This document shows, in pieces, positions 20,958 through 62,009 of a stretch of 64,000 nt of DNA. The notes beneath the pieces are model-generated. The model was not told where the DNA came from. It saw only the letters and a list, made by a program, of their open reading frames with translations, and did not search any database. The DNA comes from Halichondria panicea (lineage: Eukaryota; Porifera; Demospongiae; Suberitida; Halichondriidae), in the NCBI RefSeq assembly GCF_963675165.1, contig NC_087379.1, forward strand, positions 5,597,442 to 5,661,441, read 5' to 3'. Position 1 is the stretch's first letter; each line of letters opens with the position of its first letter. Both the position numbers and the translations under genes were made by a program.

Positions 20958-21739
20958 CTATAGTGAAAAATAAATGAGGGGGAGTCCCATATCGCTTCTA
21001 TATACATGCACCAGTGTCGCAGGATTCAGTTACCCCCGGTCACTATACTTATACTCCTCTACCTCTGAGCCACAGCCAGCCTTGACTATACAGAGCAAGA
21101 ATTTGACTGCATTGTTTGACCCCATGAACATGTAATAAGTCTACTAGGTCTATATAGCTATAGCTCAGCACAAAACAAAACTGTTCATTGCATCTGTATT
21201 GGCATTTGCTATTTTGCTGTTCAATAATTATGATTAATAACAGTGCCATGCAGTATAGGGAGTAAAAATATGAGCCATATTCCCTGGAAGTAAAATATGG
21301 CTCATATTCACTAGAAATCACGTAGGATACAGAAAATAAACAAGATGCATGCTCATTCACCCCGTGTGTTGCACAGCGGCAAAATGGATACAATACTGTT
21401 TACCATAATCAGGGGCGTTTCTAGAGATTGAAGCAGAGGGGTGCTCAAGAGCACAGAAAAAATGAGGTCGTGCGCATAGCGCGCGCGATTTTCCTCCTCC
21501 GCATTTATTGCGGTGCGTCTTTTACATGAATAGCGTGACAATAAGACATAATTATGAGTCAGTCATCTTGTAGGATCTCCATGCACTATTCCCCTGGAGT
21601 ACATCCTAGCAAACTGGTCAATCACTGCAATGGGGATGTCCAGTCAGTCTAGTGTTAGTCATTGCTTCACACACTTCACAGTATCTCTCAGTGGAGCAAG
21701 AGGTGACTTAGCCTCGATTCCAGGCCGCTTGAACAAGGC

Positions 21740-22525
21740 GGCCTGGTATAGCCTCGTTCCCAGGCCTTACTTTTTCTTGCTGTTGTCACTGTTCATCCAT
21801 AAACATAAGAAAGACATAGTGAGGCAGCAAAGAAAGAAATGGGCGTACAATTAAGAAAACGTAAGGCCTGGTTTGGGAAATCGCGTGATCCACAAGGATT
21901 TTTATGAACGTGGGCGATATGTAGCCCACAATCGTGACGTAAGGTATTCTCCCACGCATTCCGAGTAAGACTGTACTGCACTGTACTGCACTGAGACAAC
22001 CACCAAGCTGTGCTGCAAGTCAGATCAGAGAACCAGCGTGGCCAGCTCTGGTGGCAGTAGCTACCTGCTATATGATAATGATGACTAAGCTATTCTACTA
22101 TAGCATGTAGAAAGACACAAGAAAAGGTAATAGTGATAGAATCTAAACACACAATCTAGACTAGTAGATCATCTAGCTAAGCCTAAGGTATAGCTAGCTA
22201 TAGTGCTTGCAAACTTCCAGTTCCAAGTCCATGTCCAGCTTGCAGCAGGCAAAGTTTTACTAGTCGTAGACCTCTGCGTGGGCAGTCCAACATCTCTAGC
22301 TCAGTATGCCCACGCTCATTTTCACCCTTCTACCACCCTTCTACCCTCACGCGACTTCCCGATACAGGCTCTCCTTTTTCCTAACTTTACGTCTATTTCT
22401 TTCTTTATTCCTCCAATTAATACCGTATTTTATCTCATTGAACGAATAATACAGTATTTTATCTTATTGAACGATTGTGATAAAGAACAGAAAAAGGAGA
22501 GCCTGTGTAGAGGCTAGGCCTGGTA
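21740..22525. mobile_element. 768-bp TAGCCTCG-family element nested in the left arm
   Basis: Element 21749-22516 begins TAGCCTCGTTCCCAGGCC and ends GTAGAGGCTA. The 9-bp direct repeat GGCCTGGTA lies at 21740-21748 and 22517-22525. The right arm has the uninterrupted site. Related in sequence to 47459-48202 (both carry CTCTCCTTTTTCT-type stretches). Confidence 0.8.
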
Positions 22526-22526
22526 T

Positions 22527-23117
22527 ACCTTGTATTAGCCTCGATTTAAGGCCGATTAAAATACGGCCTGGTACCTATTGCAGGGGTGATAGTGCGCATG
22601 CGCTTCAAATTACCCGAACGTAAAACCTTAGTAAATTATCCGGAAATTAGTCCGTTTACTAAGAATATGTTCCGTAATACTTTATCTCAAAGACTGAGTT
22701 CTGTGAAGCTGTGGCTTATGCCGTCTATTGCGTTGGTCTAGAAGGCTTGAACACTAGTTTTAAGACAGAAGAGGCTCTCATCTACGTCTAGGATGGTCCT
22801 ATAGCCGGGTTGTCTTTGCGAGTGGCAATTTGAGGCACCACACACTTCCCATAGCCTGTACAGATCCAAGGTAAGACATCCTGACCATACAACCGTCATA
22901 GAGGTAGATGAGAACCTCTTCTGGCTTCAGACTAGTGTGAAAGCCTTCTGGAACAACGCAATAGAGAGCTAAGCTGATGTTACAAAGATAGAAAATAGAT
23001 GAAGAAATAGGGGATTCCCCAGATTCTGGTGAATAAACTAACGCATGCGCACTATCACCCCTGCAATAGGTACCAGGCCGTATTTTAATCAGCCTTGAAT
23101 CGAGGCTAACCTTGTAT
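22527..23117. mobile_element. 573-bp foldback MITE nested in the left arm
   Basis: Element 22536-23108 has inverted ends of about 68 bp (TAGCCTCGATT..AAGGC.GATTAAAATACGG). The 9-bp direct repeat ACCTTGTAT lies at 22527-22535 and 23109-23117. Its interior also folds back (about 22690-22790 with 22890-22975). The right arm shows the empty site. Confidence 0.82.
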
Positions 23118-23539
23118 GCGCATGTAGGACCAGAAAGCCAGAAATCGGAAAAAGCGGAAGTGAAGAGTAAATGAGTGGGCGTAGCAGGGCAATGCATTCC
23201 AAGGTTAACCCATGACTTTGCGCAGATGTAATGAGATGCTCTTGCCTGATCACTCAACTAGTATCAGTGTAAGTAAGTAGAAAGCTGGCCAGCCTAGTTT
23301 TAAGAGGCAGGTAAGTAGACTCTTCATTCTCTTCATTGTCTGCAGTATAGACTCGATAATATGGCTAGCTACTTGCACATGTCTGCAGTAGGCTATAGCT
23401 AGATGCACAATGACTGAATGAATTATGTCTGTACACTGAGCTAGATTTTGTATGAATTTAACACTATCCTTTTTTAAGGTGTGTTAATTCAGCCAGTCAC
23501 CTAACTCCTACTTATACTCCCCAATTTATTGTCCTGAGG

Positions 23540-24690
23540 TTATTTGGCTCTACTGAAACACGCCAAGCCACTTTTCTGACTTTCTGAGAGCCATGATTCG
23601 AGAACGGGAACTGGAATAATTATGTTCAGTCCTAATATAATATAGACAAGCACGTATCAGCCAATAAGTTATGTTGAAATACTCAAGTTACTTTAATCGA
23701 CTGGAACTTGCTAAGAAGCTTTTCTGACTTTCCGAGAGCAGTGATTCGTTAACAGGAACCCTGAAAATAATATATTCAGTGCTGGACTAGACATGCATGC
23801 AGATATCAGCCAGTATTTGATATAAATTATACTCAATTCTGAGGTTACTTTAATCGACTGGAACTTGCTGAGCACTCGTGACTTTCTGACTTTCCGAGAG
23901 CATGTGGTTCATTAACGGGAACCCTGAAAAATAATAATTATATTCAGTGCTGGTCTAGACATGCATGCATGCAGATATCAGCCAGTATGTTGATATATAC
24001 TCTTCTGAGGTTACTTTAATCAACTGGAAGTTGCTGAGAAACTTTTCTGACTTTCCGAGAGCAGTGCTTAGTAAACGGAAACCCAGAAAATATATTTAGT
24101 GCTGGTCTTAGACAAGTAGGTAGCAGCCAATACGTTGATACACTCTTCTGAGGTTACTTTAATCGACTGGGAACTTGCTGAGCAACTTTTCTGACTTTCC
24201 GAGAGCTATGGTTCGTTAACGGGAACCCTGAAAAATAACATATTCAGTGCTGGTCTAGACATGCATGCAGATATCAGCCAGTATTTGATATAATTATACT
24301 CAAGTTTACAATTCTGAGGTTACTTTAATCGACTGGAACTTGCTGAGCAAGAACTAGCTGAGAAACTTTTCAGACTTTCCGAGAGCAGTGCTTCGTAAAC
24401 GGAAGACCAGCAGGTATCAACCAATACGTTGATACACTCTTCTCGGGTTAATTTAATCGACTGGGAACTTACTGAGCAACTTTTTAGACTTTCCGAGAGC
24501 ATGCAGTGATTCGTAAACGGAACTTGACCCTGAAAATGTTCAGTACTGTTCTTAGACATGCAAGCATGTATCAACTAATACCTATAATTATATACCCAAG
24601 TTTACAATTCTGAGGTTACTTTAATTGAGTAGAACTTGTTGACTTTCCAAGAGTAGTGATTCGTAAACAGAAACCCTGAAAATTAATTTT
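23540..24690 (+). repeat. Left-arm tandem array, 8 units
   Basis: Units of about 110-165 bp, each with CTGAGGTTACTTTAATCGAC, GACTTTCCGAGAGCAGTG, GGTTCGTTAACGGGAACC and GTGCTGGTCTAGACATGCAT. The unit core GGTTCGTTAACGGGAACC is nearly palindromic around GTTAAC. The outermost unit is the most diverged and pairs with the outermost right-arm unit. Confidence 0.85.
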
Positions 24691-25452
24691 GTTGAAACAC
24701 CCCTTAATAATAACATTAAGGTAAATTCTATACCAGGATCCAACACAGTAATGATACACAAACAATCTTCATTATATAGTCAAGTCCTGTTGTGTATAAT
24801 TATATTATAGTCTACAGCTATACAATATAGATGTATATAGGTATATGGATAAGCAGGATGATATCATGAAGTAGGCAGATGATGCTGCAATACTAGAGAT
24901 TGAAGAAGATATGAGAGTGAGTGAGGAATACTCAGAATGTGCTGAATCAGAGGTATACAGGCATATATAGTTACAACATAAACTGTCGATGTGTACAATG
25001 TGTTAATTACGTAATGGTTATGCAATGTTTACTATGTTTATAGTTTTAGTTTTGTGGTAATACGTGCCAGGCCAGTTTCTTAAAATAATCGTCGCCATAT
25101 TGGAAGGCAAGCATATCCCTACCAACGATCGGAGCGCCCCAATGATAAAGGCTTACTACCATACACATATACCGTGACAATCTGTCAGTGGGTGAAATTG
25201 AAACCCATTAACCAACCAGAAAGAAAAGCGCATGTGTTACGTACAGAAGAAAAAGGATGCCATCGAAGGGAGATTAAAAAGAAATTCGAGCATTAGAGGT
25301 GCAAAAATAATTATATCAATAGTTCCTGACTCAACCAGAAAATCAAATTAAAGGAAGATTTGAGAAAACCATGCTTTAATAATTACGTCCAGTGCAATCG
25401 TTAGCATCAAGTTCTAATGAGCATGATAGACTATCCTGCATGTATAGACATA

Positions 25453-28380
25453 TAATTTAGGTACAATTGCAAGTAAATAATGTCTTGCGCATTGATGTCT
25501 TTTCGAAGTATCTCATTTTGCACAAAGCAACAAAGCAATCAGCAGTTGCGTCTCCAGATTTTTTTGCTGATTTTCGATTTTTGTTGATTTTGGATTTCTG
25601 GTTCGGCTTGAGTGTGAAAGATGTTCTGAGTTGTGTGTGTCACTATGACGCTGAAAGTGAAAATTGTTCGAAGCAGTGCTATATCATTATACTGAGACAT
25701 CTCAATCCCAGCTATATAGGGCAAGGTAACTGCATGCATAAATTGTTTTATGCTGTAATAATTAACAATGTGCATTCTATATATATAATTATATAGATCT
25801 GCTATAACTGCAATGCTGTTTAATTTAGATTCTGTGAGGTCAGTTGGTTGTATCTGTACACATTGATGGTGTCCTGCTAGCTTCGATTCCAGGCCGATTC
25901 GGCCTTGAATCGAGGCTAGTGTCCTGCATGTATGCATGCCTATGAGCATTATTATGCCTCGAGGCGTAGCCGCACGAGGGATACGGTAAAGCTGACTGTG
26001 TGTGTGTGTGTGTGTGTCTGTGTGTCTGTTCCAGCTGTAACTGCTCAACGGTTGCAATGCGACGAAAACTAACAGCTTCTATAGGCTTCTAGCCACGTTC
26101 TCTTGGATTTTGATTCGTGGATTTGCAAACTAAAGCTTCTTTCTCGAGTTATGGCTAGTTTGACTCACATTGAAGGCTGTTGCAGTCTCTTCAGAATCTT
26201 TCATAGCATCATCTGTCCGCACAAACTTTCTATTCAACATATGAGTTAGCCTTGCACTAAAGCGCTAGCTTTTTGTTAGCTACAATACTCAGAAAATATC
26301 TGTTAAAACAGCTAGCTAGCAGTAGCCATTTGTGAAATTGATCTCTTTGGACACACCCTTTAATTATTCCTGTGTATGTAATGCGCATGCGCGCTCATTC
26401 CCCACGTGTGAGAAAATAATAATATCCAAGATCCAGATCCAGATCCTCCTGGCAGAATCATCTTTGTCTTGAAGGCCTGGTAAGCCACAAAACATTACCA
26501 TATAACAATATAGATAACAATATGCATGTACACAGGTCTTTTCTTCTTAGATATTATATACACTGAACTACAGATCTTGGAAGAATCAATTTTCTTCTTT
26601 CTTGAGGTCCTAGTAAGCCACATAATACAACAATAGATGCATGTAAATAAGTCTTTTCTTCTCAGTGACTTTATATAGATAAGCTAACCTTTAATATAAA
26701 ATTCATTATAGAAACTAATATAACACTCTAATACTTTTCAGCGAAAGCAAAAACATGGCGAGAGGCATTAGCACAGCGCCAGCTTGAACACTAGTTTATA
26801 GAAGAATGGAGTTTGATAATGTCTTCGTTCTTGATGTAATCTGCTGAAGATGTCATGATCAGGTCATTAAATTTTATGTATATTATATGGGAACATGCAG
26901 ATAAAAAATTCCAGTAGTTTTAAGCATCTAATAGTGTCATACAATTTTTCTCACTTTTTTCAAAACTCAGCTAGTGTATTTAAATAATTATATAGGGCAT
27001 ACTCTTTCAAACTGGAAAAGCTCTGTTTCCTGTACTGTGTGCATGCATGTGAATAGCATTACACACTATTGGTGAACTGATAATTATATGAAAATTATGG
27101 CTGAGTGCATGTTATACATGTATACCCATGGCTATAACTATGCCATGGTATTATGTGAGATACCGTATATACGTATTGTGCTAGAAATAATTATTAGTTA
27201 CTATATCATTAATATATAGCACTATATACGTTAACGGCAAGAGTATAAATAATATAAGAAGAGAAGAGTGTCGAACTACCAATACCTCTATACACAAAAC
27301 TGTGCACAAAGTAACGTGATATCCTGTCAATTGCGCAAGCTTGCGCACACATTACGCAACGCACAGAATTTGTTAGCAGTGAGTAAAGAGTGGAAGTGAA
27401 GAGGATTAACCCGACTATTGTCTCTATTTATGATTTTTGTGAAAAGATCGTCTTCTATCAGTGTGTAGTGAGCAGCTCTGAACGTTGAACGCAAACGAAT
27501 ATAGCTAGAATCAGATGTCATTGTACATGCACCCCTAAAAACGTCACGGTTAAAATTTTCTAGGAGATTACTAGTAAGTTTACAGTATACTTCATCACGT
27601 GCGCGAGTCATGTTACTTTGTGTATGATGCCGCTGAGTATAAAACACATAATTGTAATGGACAAACACATTATAGGCAGATTGTTAACGCTAGCTATAGT
27701 TCTGGTAAGTTCTTATGCATGCAGTTCACGATACATCTGTTACAAGGGCATAGGTATAGTGGATTTAGAGAACAGCTTTTTGGGGTTGGCTGCTAGAGTT
27801 TGTGCTATAGGTTTTTGTCATAATCAATTTTAGGATCAGGGATTGGTTTTGTAATTGCAGTTCCTCTAGTTTGCATAGCTTGATAGTAGTGTGTATTTCC
27901 TTAATCCATGCAAGTTTTTAACGTTATGTCTTATTCCTTGGTGAACCAGTTAAGGACGCTGTTGTAGCCGTTGCATGTCTGTATATACAATAGCTGATGT
28001 TGTCTGTTTTTAGTTCTATATAAATAACATAATTATTGGGAGGCTTAGGGAGATGATTGGGTGGAAGTACTGCTAAAGTTATAATTATAGCTTGAATTGT
28101 AAAAAAAAGTTACTTATGGATCAAATATATAGGCGGATTATAACTATTATAGTTGGCTGTGAGAGAGAATAACACTAAGTGGTTGGAGTATAGTTATATA
28201 TGGTTGATCCACTACCGGCCTCTCTTGGTGTATCTGTTAAAATATATAAATCTAGAATATTGCCCTATATATGTGTGAGGGAGGCTATCAGTTGGATAAT
28301 TAAGTTTCAACGATACAACATTATTTTAACAGCCCCGGCCATAAATTATTAATTAAAGCCTGTCTGGTATGTACGTTGTA
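25453..28380. other. Central spacer of the foldback element
   Basis: Unique, AT-rich sequence between the arms. It contains a 41-bp insertion (25878-25918), a (GT)n tract near 25995-26020 followed by a stretch shared with 14520-14605, and several frames of about 110-170 aa that have no codon or domain character. I see no gene here. Confidence 0.6.
25869..25927. mobile_element. 41-bp minimal TAGCCTCG-family insertion with 9-bp target duplication
   Basis: Insert 25878-25918 is almost only two inverted ends (TAGCTTCGATTCCAGGCC and GGCCTTGAATCGAGGCTA with 5 nt between). The perfect 9-bp repeat GTGTCCTGC lies at 25869-25877 and 25919-25927. Confidence 0.82.
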
Positions 28381-29489
28381 TTATTATCTTGCTTTGTATG
28401 TCTACGGGATAGTCCATGCATAATGCTTATTATGAACTTGATGCTATAATTATATAAGGATTGCTTGAATGCATTGGATGGTTTATTCTCAAATCTTCCT
28501 TTGATTTTCTGGTTGAGTCGAGAACTATTGATATAGCACCTCATCTTCGCTAATGCCAGAACACTTCATGGAATCTCTTTCGTTGACAGACTTTTCGTCA
28601 ATGGTTGAAACACCTGTGGCTTGGTGTATTTAATTATAATTATGGTGTAAAAAATTATTGACATAATTATTCATTTTACATACTGACAGATTAATTGTCA
28701 CGGTATGGTCACGGTACGGCCACGACAGTAGTAAGTCTTTTTTATTGGGGCGCTCCAATCTTTGGTAGAGATATAATTATGCTTGCCTTCTATAAAATGT
28801 AAGCAACATAAATTACTGTGTCAGGAAGTGCTTTGGATGCATCAGAATCACCTTCAGCCTCACCCCCATTTTCCTATCGCCTATATAATTATATAGGCCG
28901 GCCTTGCATTACAGCTATATAGGACAATATATCTAGAGACGATGGTGTACAATCTACAAGCTTAACTATAGCAATTATCATCTACTTACAATGTAGTTTA
29001 TGTTGTAACTATATACGCCTGTATTTATCCAGTGAGAGTTTTCCTCATGCACTCTCTCTCATAACTGTCTTTCAATCGCAGCATCATCACTGCCTACTTC
29101 ATCGTCACTGCTCGTCCATATACCTATATTGTATATAATTATAGGACTGGTGTAGACTACGTATATATACACTGCCAGGACTTGACTATAATGAGGATTA
29201 TTTGTGTATACTGTGTTGCATGGATCCTGGTATAGAATTTAGTCTACACCCATGAGTGATGACACACACTATTATTATATCAAATTATCAAGACAATACA
29301 CAGTAATACATCTATTCAAGCAAAATCTATAGTAATTAGCTGCTGACAACACACTATATATAGATGCATGCATGGTCATGCAACAAACCAGGTGCACACC
29401 AGTCTATCAGCCCAGCAAAATGAAATTATATAGTATACAATTATATAGAGTCTACGTATAGTCCGTACACTTTGATTCAATCTCTATAG

Positions 29490-31720
29490 TCAGAACTCAA
29501 TATAGTTTCTCATGATTGAATCTTCTGTCACGAACTTACTCAAAAGGCTATCTTTGCACTGAGCCGTGAATAATAATCTTGCATCTAGTGAAATTGTAAT
29601 CAACATTTGAATTACTGCCCATGGAACGTCAAGAGTCGTTCTATAGTTGAGTAAAGTAACAATAACTGAAGGTATGGATGGACTGACTGCCTGCATTGCT
29701 TGTCCGAGAAATGCTTTTTATGAATTACAGTTGAATCACTACTCATGGAAAGTCTGAAAAGTTGCTCCAGGAAGTTCCATGCAGTCGATTAAAGTATAGC
29801 CTCAGAGTTGTAAACTTAGGTATATCAATATAATTATTGGCTGATACCTGCTTGTCTATAGGACCAGCACTGAATATATTTTCTGGGTTTCCGTTTATGA
29901 ATCACTGCTCTCGGAAAGTCAGAAAAGTTTCTCAGCAAGTTCCCAGTCGATTAAAGTAACCTCAGAAGAGTGTATCAACGTATTGGCTGCTACCTGCTTG
30001 CCTAAGACCAGCACTAAATATATTTTCTGGGTTTCCGTTTACGAAGCACAGCTCTCGGAAAGTCAGAAAAGTTGCTTAGCAAGTTCCAGTCGATTAAAGT
30101 AACCTCAGAATTGTAAACTTGAGTATACATCAACATACTGGCTGATATTTGCATGCATGTCTAGACCAGCACTGAATATGTTATTTTTCTGGATTCCCGT
30201 TAAACGAACCACTGCTCTCGGAAAGTCAGAAAAGTTGCTTAGCAAGTTCCAGTCGATTAAAGTAACCTCAGAATTGTAAACTTGAGTATATATCAACATA
30301 CTGGCTGGTATATCTGCATGCATGTCTAGACAAGCACTGAACATGTTATTTTTCTGGATTCCCGTTAACGAACCACTGCTCTCGGAGAGTCAGAAAAGTT
30401 GCTTAGCAAGTTCCAGTCGATTAAAGTAACCTCAGAATTGTAAACTTGAGTATAATTATATCAACATACTGGCTGATATCTGCATGCATGTCTATAGACC
30501 AGCACTGAATATGTTATTTTTCTGGATTCCCGTTAACGAACCACTGCTCTCGGAAAGTCAGAAAAGTTGCTTAGCAAGTTCCAGTCGATTAAAGTAACCT
30601 CAGAATTGTAAACTTGAGTATATATCAACATACTGGCTGATATATATCTGCATGCATGTCTATATGCCAGCACTGAATATGTTATTTTTCTGGATTCCCG
30701 TTAACGAACCACTGCTCTCGGAAAGTCAGAAAAGTTGCTTAGCAAGTTTCAGTCGATTAAAGTAACCTCAGAATTGTAAACTTGAGTATATATCAACATA
30801 CTGGCTGATATCTGCATGCATGTCTATAGACCAGCACTGAATATGTTATTTTTCTGGATTCCCGTTAACGAACCACTGCTCTCGGAAAGTCAGAAAAGTT
30901 GCTCAGCAAGTTCCAGTCGATTAATTAAAGTAACCTCAGAATTGTAAACTTGAGTATATATCAACATACTGGCTGATATCTGCATGCATGCATGTCTAGA
31001 CCAGCATTGAATATATTATTTTTCAGGGTTCCCGTTAACGAACCACTGCTCTCGGAAAGTCAGAAAAGTTGCTCAGCAAGTTCCAGTCGATTCAAATAAC
31101 CTCAGAAGAGTATATATCAACATACTAGCTGATATCTGCATGCATGTCTAGACCAGCACTGAATATATTATTTTTCAGGGTTCCCGTTAAGGAACCACTG
31201 TTTTCGGAAAGTCAGAAAAGTTGCTCAGCAAGTTCCAGTCGATTGAAGTAACCTCAGAATTGTAAACTTGAGTATATATCAACATACTGGCTGATATCTG
31301 CATGCATGTCTAGACCAGCACTGAATATATTATTTTTCTGGGTTCCCGTTAACGAACCACTGCTCTCGGAAAGTCAGAAATGTTGCTCAGCAAGTTCCAG
31401 TCGATTAAAGTAACCTCAGAATTGTAAACTTGAGTATATATCAACATATTGGCTGATATCTGCATGCATGTCTAGACCAGCACTGAATATGTTATTTTTC
31501 TGGGTTCCCGTTAACGAACCACTGCTCTCGGAAAGTCAGAAAAGTTTGCTCAGCAAGTTCCAGTCGATTAAAGTAACTTGAGTATATCAACATAACTTAT
31601 TGGCTGATATACTTAATTGCTTGTGTATAGACCTGGATTGAACATAATTATTCCAGTTCCCGTTCTATAATCATGGCTCTCAGAAAGTCAGAAAAGTGGC
31701 TCGGCGTGTTTCAGTATAGA
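29490..31720 (-). repeat. Right-arm tandem array, about 13 units
   Basis: Same unit as 23540-24690 in opposite orientation. The CTCTCGGAAAGTCAGAAAAG core recurs at about 29741, 29909, 30051, 30217, 30381, 30548, 30718, 30884, 31050, 31203, 31365, 31530 and 31677, a period of about 165 bp. Central units are far more alike than the edge units, as expected for recent amplification by unequal exchange. Confidence 0.88.
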
Positions 31721-31765
31721 GCCAAATAACCTCTGCAGAGGTTATTGCAGAGGTTATTTGGCTCT
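31718..31765. repeat. Perfect 20-bp inverted repeat with 8-nt loop
   Basis: Arms 31718-31737 and 31746-31765 (AGAGCCAAATAACCTCTGCA and complement). It sits at the junction of the tandem array and the outer block of the right arm. The left arm has the single, unfolded version near 23540-23560. Confidence 0.85.
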
Positions 31766-32033
31766 ATGGACAATAAATTGGGGAGTATATGTAGGAGTTA
31801 GGTGACTGGCTGAATTAAAAATGATAATGTTAAATTCATACTAAATCTAGCTCAGTGTACAGACAAAATTAATTCAGTCATTGTGCATGTAGCTAGCTAG
31901 AGTCTACTGCAAACATGTGCTAGTAGCTAGCTATTATATCAAGTCTATACTGCAGACAATGGAGAGTCTACTTAAAACTAGGCTGGCCAGCTTTCTACTT
32001 ACTTACATAGACTAGTAGAGTGATCAGGCAAGA

Positions 32034-32877
32034 GGATATCAGTGGCGGATCCAGAGGTAGTTCGTTGGGTTCGTACGAACTACCCTTCCACTAAGTTGAT
32101 ACTTTATATTTAATACACCTGGCTAGCTAGCTAGCTAGCTAGCTTACTACTGTCATGACAATAGGGTACAAAGTTCTCTCTGCATAATGTGAGGGTGGGG
32201 CTGGTACTCTCTGCATAATATGAGGGTGGGGCTGGCTATATTGACTCATCCAGCCACATGGTCACAGTGATAATTGAGCCTGGCCATGAATCCTAACAAA
32301 AGGCTAGATTGCAACCCTCCATTGACTCCTGGAGTAAAGTTTCAGGTAAGGGAGAGTTCATGGCACTGCATACTGAATGATAGACACTGTATAGATTAAT
32401 TATAATTGCTATAATAATTATATTGACTAATATAATAATCTAGATGATGCGTCAAGTCTACAGCCAGTCTCCTCTTCAAGAGAACCACCAGCCACCATCG
32501 TCACTCCTCCAGTCATCAACGTCTCTCCTCCAGTCACAACCATCTTTCCTCCAGTCACAACTATCTCTCCACTGGAACCACCAGCCACCTCCATCACCCC
32601 TCCGTGTTCATCGAAGCAAGCAACGAGATCTTTCGCTGAGGATCAGCCAATGGACATTGGTGCTCTCCTGAAAGAGAAGAAAGTGCAATCACTATCCCAG
32701 AGCATGAGAATGGCTTTGCCTTGTGTTCTTTCAGATATTATAGTTGAAGGGGAATTTGGTTAATTAATGGGCGTGGCATGTAAAAGGGGGCGTGGTCAAC
32801 CCAAAAATTTCGGCGCTTCGCGCGGCCAAGAAGTAAGAACCCCCCTTCCTTAAATCCTGGATCCGCCCCTGGATATC
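32034..32877. mobile_element. hAT-like insertion in the right arm
   Basis: Element about 32041-32870. The ends read (C)AGTGGCGGATCCAGAG and CTGGATCCGCCCCT. The direct repeat GGATATC lies at 32034-32040 and 32871-32877 (7 bp matched; hAT elements usually duplicate 8). It contains a possible first exon (32287 on, MNPNKRLDCNPPLTPG) with a donor, and a Pro/Ser/Thr-rich stretch at 32444-32760, a probable remnant gene of unknown identity. The left arm has no such insertion. Confidence 0.65.
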
Positions 32878-32990
32878 TCTGTGCAAAATCAAAGGTTAAC
32901 CTTGGAATGCATTGCCCTGCTACGCCCACTCATTTACTCTTCACTTCCGCTTTTTCCGATTTCTGGCTTTCTGGTCCTACATGCGCATGT

Positions 32991-33634
32991 GTGTACATTA
33001 CCCCAAAAAGGGGGTAATCCGTGTATTTGTGGATACTGTCAGTAAAATAAACCGTATACTATCTGTATTCTGAAGTTAGAGTCCGTTACATAGAAGTATT
33101 GTGCAAAGATGACTGAGTTCTTACGCCCTTTATTGTATCAAGCCAAGTCTCTACTTAACGACACCCTACACTGTAAGGCTACAGATGTTATAGGAAAGGC
33201 ATGATGTGTTCCTGTGGGTCCCCTGATGAGGCTGTGGTAATATAGACCAGGCAAGTGTTCTGCTACTAAATCTTGCCTTTATGTTCGACAAGAAGTCATT
33301 GTTGAAGATAAAGAAGCTAATGATTACTCCTGAAAGCTTTTAATAAGCTTTAACTCGACACTCAGGAAGTTATTCACTCAAGATCTACTGATGTATTAAA
33401 GAGTCCACCACTCTTCCTAGCTGGCAGCTCTAGCTGTCTGGGAGGCTTTCTTAAACTGTCTCTCTGATAAACAGAGCTAGAAGAAGCAACACTGCTGCAG
33501 CATAATTATTCTACTTGATTAGTGGCTGCCATTGTGGTCACATTGTCCATACGTATTATTCCCTTTTGTAACTTTGTCCGTTTTTTTACAATTTGTATGA
33601 TGAAATTGTTGTCAATTATTTCGCGCATGCGCAT
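32991..33634. mobile_element. 628-bp insertion with 8-bp target duplication in the right arm
   Basis: The perfect direct repeat ATGCGCAT (32991-32998 and 33627-33634) flanks 628 bp that the left arm lacks; the left arm has one ATGCGCAT at the junction (23115-23122). There are no clear inverted ends, and the class is unknown. Confidence 0.65.
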
Positions 33635-34055
33635 ACAAGGTATACCAGGCCGCCTTGTTCAAGCGGCCTGGAATCGAGGCTAGAGGTGACTGCACTGGGA
33701 GAGTGCAGAGGTATTATGCATTACATAACAACATTGGAATGGCAATGCTGATTGCGCATGCTCAATTGGGCGTGGTCATGACTTGTCAAGATAGCTGCAC
33801 ACACATACCTCTGGAGCTGCACTATACATAATAGCTATAGCTAGCTACTGAGTGATAGGATTAGTTTCATGGTTGTCTGGGAGGACAGGGGGGTGCTCAA
33901 GCCCCCAAAGCCCCCCATTGTACACGCCACTGATAATGACAACATTATCATTATGGGAAATGATCGGGAATCTATAAGGCAACGATTAGATCTATTAGGA
34001 AAACAGTGTTTTTTGTCGCCTTCTATTAAAGATGGCTACGAGTTTAAATTTCAAC

Positions 34056-46543: not shown

Positions 46544-62009
<15,466 letters not shown>

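Follow-up and report, generated by a model that had tools for sequence, protein, structure and literature searches.

A foldback transposon with 6-bp, GCGC-centred target duplications lies nested in a TAGCCTC miniature element of the sponge Halichondria panicea

Foldback (FB) elements of Drosophila combine long inverted arms, tandem subrepeats and a loop with, as usually described, no transposase in the copy. The same plan recurs in a stretch of 64,000 nt from the sponge Halichondria panicea (assembly GCF_963675165.1, contig NC_087379.1, positions 5,597,442 to 5,661,441 of the forward strand; hereafter the window), where the original prediction placed one 12-kb FB-like element at 21700-33691. 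We are highly confident of a different reading: several independent insertions are stacked here, among them a foldback transposon with a 6-bp target duplication of its own that is nested in a miniature inverted-repeat transposable element (MITE) with TAGCCTC ends. This confidence extends to the nesting and to a foldback with 6-bp duplications; it does not extend to the guess at a transposase made below. Compared by description rather than by sequence, FB differs from the sponge element in duplicating 9 bp, against 6 bp centred on GCGC here. Coordinates are those of the window unless prefixed by C; the genome searched comprised 131 Mb in 39 contigs.

Two further published elements are described with a similar architecture. 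Tetris of D. virilis is alike in having terminal inverted repeats (TIRs) with tandem repeats of ~220 bp, a non-coding middle, ends shared with a MITE and an autonomous partner that was not found; it is unlike in its 8-10 bp duplications and its assignment to Mutator, the sponge family showing 6 bp with a GCGC core, units of ~168 bp and copies of 7.5-11.7 kb (PMC4079207). Tm1 of Meloidogyne, titled Mutator/Foldback, shares composite tandem-repeat TIRs, whereas its duplications are mostly 9 bp without consensus, its repeats are 13-15 bp long and some copies hold a putative transposase (PMC3169594). Foldback structure has been suggested to evolve independently in different lineages, as reported in the Tetris paper (PMC4079207). 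No published sponge foldback was among the matches listed, by title, from the foldback, MITE and sponge genome literature.

At the outer boundaries, the features first reported are all present. An exact 9-bp direct repeat, GAGGTGACT, flanks the interval (Table 1), and the TIR within it is perfect over 42 bp (21709-21750 / 33641-33682). These termini (TAGCCTCG) and the 9-bp duplication are nevertheless assigned to the outer MITE, because the junction at which the arms enter, GGCCTGGTATACCTTGTATGCGCATGTGTGTACATTACC, can be found intact elsewhere, at 63 places (up to 2 mismatches; backward control 0). A single 12-kb FB-like foldback with TAGCCTCG termini was rejected on these empty junctions. What spoke for it was the perfect TIR and exact duplication enclosing the arms; what speaks against it, besides the junctions, is that the MITE body occurs elsewhere, that the arm segment has other flanks at other loci up to the GCGC site, and that 6-bp duplications lie at the inner boundary. 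We hold it to be extremely unlikely. Of the FB-like description, the long arms, mirrored blocks and tandem subrepeats stand, while the 9-bp duplication and the termini pass to the MITE. The case illustrates that nested insertions can mimic a known element, since the enclosing ends and the matching duplication length did not belong to the arms.

The outer MITE belongs to an abundant family with ends TAGCCTC..GAGGCTA. Without its inserts the window copy measures about 750 bp by window coordinates (~0.75 kb), and another copy with both exact tips is 704 bp long. Its 20-base tip has 842 exact copies genome-wide; within 3 mismatches it occurs 9 times in the window and never in 100 shuffles, which excludes chance for the outer terminus, and it was not found in collections of bacterial, archaeal and viral contigs. 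A 649-base query from the MITE body returned 40 scored rows (the best 40 of 262 candidates, counting that of the window itself), 34 of them spanning all 649 bases, and the 39 rows from outside the window were 93-97% identical. In the window, six tip pairs up to 20 kb apart, the 768-, 573- and 41-bp elements of Table 1 among them, were flanked by 9-bp direct repeats; the search tolerated one mismatch, but every repeat was exact. Of 580 deduplicated tip pairs, drawn from 30 genome loci besides the window, 28 had an exact 9-bp repeat, two had 5 bp and one had 7 bp; no exact repeat of 6, 8, 10, 11 or 12 bp was seen in this set. The prediction that other loci would share these termini and 9-bp duplications was borne out in number and not in kind: such loci abound, and those resolved are small elements of 36-1,125 bp, none of them a foldback, so that searching with these termini and this duplication cannot separate the two readings. 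The 9-bp duplication suits a Mutator-like origin of the TAGCCTC family; in a comparison on C1, none of the 7 MULE (Mutator-superfamily) hits there (31 genome-wide) had an exact 20-mer TAGCCTC tip closer than 20 kb.

Inside the MITE, the boundaries of the foldback follow from comparison between loci: sequence is common inward of TGTAGGACCAGAAAG and differs outward except for a short GCGC-centred stretch, which places the foldback at 23123-32981. Its ends, TGTAGGACC..GGTCCTACA, are perfectly inverted. Duplications were read at 15 pairs of tips (13 of the 22 exact pairs described below and 2 with one damaged tip), and in 14 of the 15 an exact 6-bp duplication with a GCGC core was found: TGCGCA, as in the window copy, nine times, TGCGCT twice, and TGCGCG, GGCGCA and AGCGCA once each. 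The palindromic TGCGCA alone would leave the length open, and it is the five asymmetric duplications that fix it at 6 with ends TG..CA. GCGC-core 6-mers are rare in the window (58 of 63,995), so the target preference is strong. The foldback's own duplication thus does not share the 9 bp of FB, contrary to the equal length first proposed, and the 8-10 bp of Drosophila FB and Mutator foldbacks are not what this family shows. A foldback family with such a clean 6-bp, GCGC-targeted signature falls outside the 8-10 bp Mutator-like pattern.

Both structural hallmarks of a foldback are present, namely mirrored long inverted arms (also in the second full copy, L091) and tandem subrepeats within them. 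The arms pair in mirrored order through five blocks (23116-23226/32878-32988, 23232-24686/30514-32041, 24722-24984/28995-29241, and the inner 25103-25159/28728-28790 and 25312-25372/28478-28535), as had been described from the sequence at the outset. Their longest side-by-side match covers 1,724 columns at 78%, and none of 20 base-shuffled right arms gave a match at E 1e-6. The earlier count of 8 tandem units on the left and 13 on the right was reproduced when a single unit core was matched with as many as 5 edits allowed. With this FB-like plan and relatives throughout the genome, the label "foldback" stands.

The exact 18-base foldback tip has 65 copies in the genome, of which 44 form 22 facing pairs (paired by hand) 7.5-11.7 kb apart. 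A 141-bp piece from the beginning of the left arm gave 43 matches, many in inverted pairs (best 40 of 73 candidates). Elsewhere, 15 places hold a nearly complete version of the loop stretch 27200-28480 that is 93-95% identical, and one more has about 850 bases of it at 91%, with more diverged, rearranged forms besides (best 40 of 267 candidates). L091 is collinear with the window foldback at 92%, and lacks the window's loop insertions and the insertion at 32040-32871. On C5 (L066, L087) it is the other TGCGCA site of the same MITE that a foldback occupies. An assembly artefact, or a long-read foldback artefact of the kind described (PMC12870357), would also yield inverted arms and copies, yet one self-folded read does not fit pairs that lie at many different sites with matching 6-bp duplications, or arms whose identity in the window copy has fallen to 78%, and we give this explanation practically no weight. 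Two observations on unusual arrangements may be added. At C5:3634627-3655147 (L065), two foldback copies stand in tandem with TGCGCG between them, followed by a third, partial tip, the result of either tandem insertion or duplication. At C9:2276243-2276396, two facing tips span only 154 bp, possibly a miniature derivative.

The best explanation of these observations is the following history. The ~0.75-kb TAGCCTC MITE inserted first, creating the GAGGTGACT duplication, and two TAGCCTC relatives entered its left end. A separate foldback inserted at the MITE's TGCGCA, duplicating 6 bp and bringing the arms with their 8- and 13-unit arrays, and smaller elements entered the foldback later; the relative order of the later insertions is our proposal. 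The foldback is most likely a non-autonomous cut-and-paste element moved in trans, a reading that fits its identical ends, the constant length of its duplication and the existence of an empty site. A transposase encoded elsewhere would recognise the TGTAGGACC ends, with the arm repeats perhaps adding binding sites, and would join these ends to NGCGCN targets with a stagger of 6 bp.

As first noted, no transposase is visible in the copy itself: neither whole copy has a gene-length frame. The longest frame of the window copy, 179 amino acids (aa), overlaps the loop and crosses later insertions, and that of L091 has 117 aa. Profile searches of the genome gave 31 hits for MULE (PF10551), 53 for KDZ (Zisupton group; PF18758) and, for rve, the best 150 of 389 candidates; none lay in the 22 paired intervals. 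That the foldback is itself a Mutator-superfamily element which, like Tetris or Tm1, would here make 6-bp duplications is suggested by these MULE genes, by the closest published architecture (the long repeat-bearing, non-coding TIRs of Tetris, PMC4079207, and the composite TIRs of Tm1, PMC3169594), by the 4-10 bp duplications given for IS256 and MuDR together (PMC10045372) and by Ulp1 in some Mutator elements (PMC2836005). We nonetheless consider it unlikely, given the 8-10 bp duplications of Tetris and Tm1 against exactly 6 bp here in all but one of the 15 pairs, the absence of all 31 MULE hits from the paired intervals, and the lack of target preference reported for Tm1 (PMC3169594) against GCGC here.

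The ends and the duplication length point weakly to the Ginger/GingerRoot group, as a lead and not as membership. Ginger ends follow TGTNR and Ginger1 can carry Ulp1 (PMC2836005), while GingerRoot makes 6-bp duplications and occasionally has TG..CA ends (PMC10045372). The foldback termini TGTAGGACC..GGTCCTACA fit TGTNR or TG..CA, and the lead rests on TGTAG fitting TGTNR, on the 6-bp duplication as in GingerRoot and on Ulp1-like pieces in a relative on C1. An integrase-like transposase of this group is therefore a tentative guess. Ginger1 is unlike the foldback in its TIRs of 40-270 bp and 4-bp, CCGG-type duplications (PMC2836005), as is GingerRoot in ends that are mostly TA..TA (PMC10045372); the available parts of their published descriptions contain no foldback arms, and no integrase was found here. 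Two rve matches among the best 150 of 389 lie up to 11.7 kb inward of unpaired tips. One, at C1:14416507 (tip C1:14421297, a 1332-aa frame), looks like a long terminal repeat element because several rows away from tips share its score and frame length; the other is at C1:11039877 (tip C1:11049904, a 298-aa frame).

A Dada-type transposon is a further candidate by duplication, as Dada makes 6-bp duplications containing GCG, such as GCGCAA and GCGAAA, with length and GCG content like those of Dada-U6 (PMC3706591). Dada elements are, however, described as having no TIRs and as targeting small RNA genes (PMC3706591), whereas the foldback ends are perfectly inverted and the flanks read differ from copy to copy, with several of them inside or next to TAGCCTC-family sequence; we regard this origin as very unlikely.

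The relative on C1 (C1:6310668-6322282, 11.6 kb) has foldback ends and an exact TGCGCT duplication around a different interior. This interior has one full-length occurrence and a second one of 1.1 kb at 99% (C11:3042989-3044094; best 40 of 735 candidates, most of the scored candidates being a widespread ~270-bp repeat). Two short fragments around a DCG motif, cut out by eye from the fetched part, match Ulp1 in Pfam at 21.1 and 21.5 bits (cut-off 20.7; E values 0.00031 and 0.00024), and the element likely, but not securely, carries Ulp1-like protease pieces. Other Pfam matches fell below the cut-off (ARL2_Bind_BART, RickCE_cat, DUF3920, XAF1_C, ARL6IP6), and no transposase or DDE family was found in the frames scanned, which lay outside C1:6319201-6322099 and comprised minus frames in pieces with gaps and plus frames over about 1.7-1.9 kb from C1:6311758. 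The element is perhaps an autonomous relative that has decayed, or else a copy with captured genes. It is possible, though we would not favour it, that the transposase behind the foldback belongs to a lineage so far not linked with foldbacks, either integrase-like, perhaps with a Ulp1-like protease, or of a new superfamily; in this reading the family is marked by 6-bp duplications at sites of the TGCGCA type, by copies of ~10 kb that lack gene-length frames, and by an uncommon 11.6-kb relative whose different middle may bear genes. Since similar copies are numerous and an empty site is known, the suggestion of independent evolution becomes testable once the transposase is found.

Several points weigh against this account of the foldback and its mobilisation. 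Nineteen of the 65 exact tips have no exact partner, one of the 15 pairs (L094/L073, perhaps a rearranged copy) has unequal flanks, GGCGCA/AGCGCT, and one tip (L069) lies at GGCGTA rather than at GCGC. The reading of duplications covers 13 of the 22 exact pairs, and the copies read whole are those of the window and L091. No transposase was found for the foldback, and none of the listed MULE, KDZ, Ulp1 or rve matches, compared by eye, fell in the 22 paired intervals; the pieces in the C1 relative itself were not among the genome matches listed for Ulp1, so that search misses short exons. In longer frames, one of the two Ulp1 fragments scores 16.1 bits and the other has no match, hence the reserve about them, and Ulp1 also occurs in some Mutator elements (PMC2836005).

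Table 1. Features of the nested locus in window coordinates (TSD, target site duplication).
Feature	Position	Strand	Basis
9-bp target duplication GAGGTGACT of outer MITE, left copy	21700..21708	.	exact match; right copy 33683-33691
Outer TAGCCTC MITE, left tip	21709..21748	+	within 42-bp TIR; 842 exact genome copies of tip 20-mer
Nested TAGCCTC-family element, 768 bp	21749..22516	+	TSD GGCCTGGTA, 21740-21748 / 22517-22525
Nested TAGCCTC-family element, 573 bp, wholly one long inverted repeat	22536..23108	+	TSD ACCTTGTAT, 22527-22535 / 23109-23117
6-bp target duplication TGCGCA of foldback, left copy	23117..23122	.	right copy 32982-32987; junction intact at 63 other places
Foldback transposon proper, 9,859 bp, ends TGTAGGACCAGAAAGCCA...TGGCTTTCTGGTCCTACA	23123..32981	+	tips, duplications, second full copy L091
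Foldback left arm	23123..25372	+	mirrored pairing
Left-arm tandem array, 8 units	23534..24692	+	unit count
Foldback loop	25373..28477	.	without gene-length frame
Minimal TAGCCTC-family element, 41 bp, two 20-bp ends	25878..25918	+	exact 9-bp TSD GTGTCCTGC; missing in L091
Foldback right arm, interrupted at 32040-32871	28478..32981	-	mirrored pairing
Right-arm tandem array, 13 units with a period of about 168	29733..31715	-	unit count
Later insertion CAGTGGCGGATCC...GGATCCGCCCCTG	32040..32871	+	apparent 5-bp duplication GATAT, read by eye; missing in L091
Outer MITE, remainder and right tip	32988..33682	+	TIR pairing, MITE body copies

Among the smaller elements, the later insertion in the right arm has ends that we take to be hAT-like. 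A further insertion of ~840 bp lies in the foldback loop at about 25954-26796, starting ATGCCTCGAGGCG, and is missing in L091. Taken alone, the loop stretch 27254-27622 has many matches elsewhere, at about 80% and with inverted ends, which suggests that an old small element may have been fixed in the ancestor of the foldback. Besides the 41-bp element in the loop there are other tiny TAGCCTC copies, of 36-68 bp, and another member of that family, 744 bp long, occupies 47459-48202 with an exact 9-bp duplication, CCAAATTTC. Farther along the window, a 63-bp tandem repeat is present in 2 copies, 98% alike, at 49698-49823.

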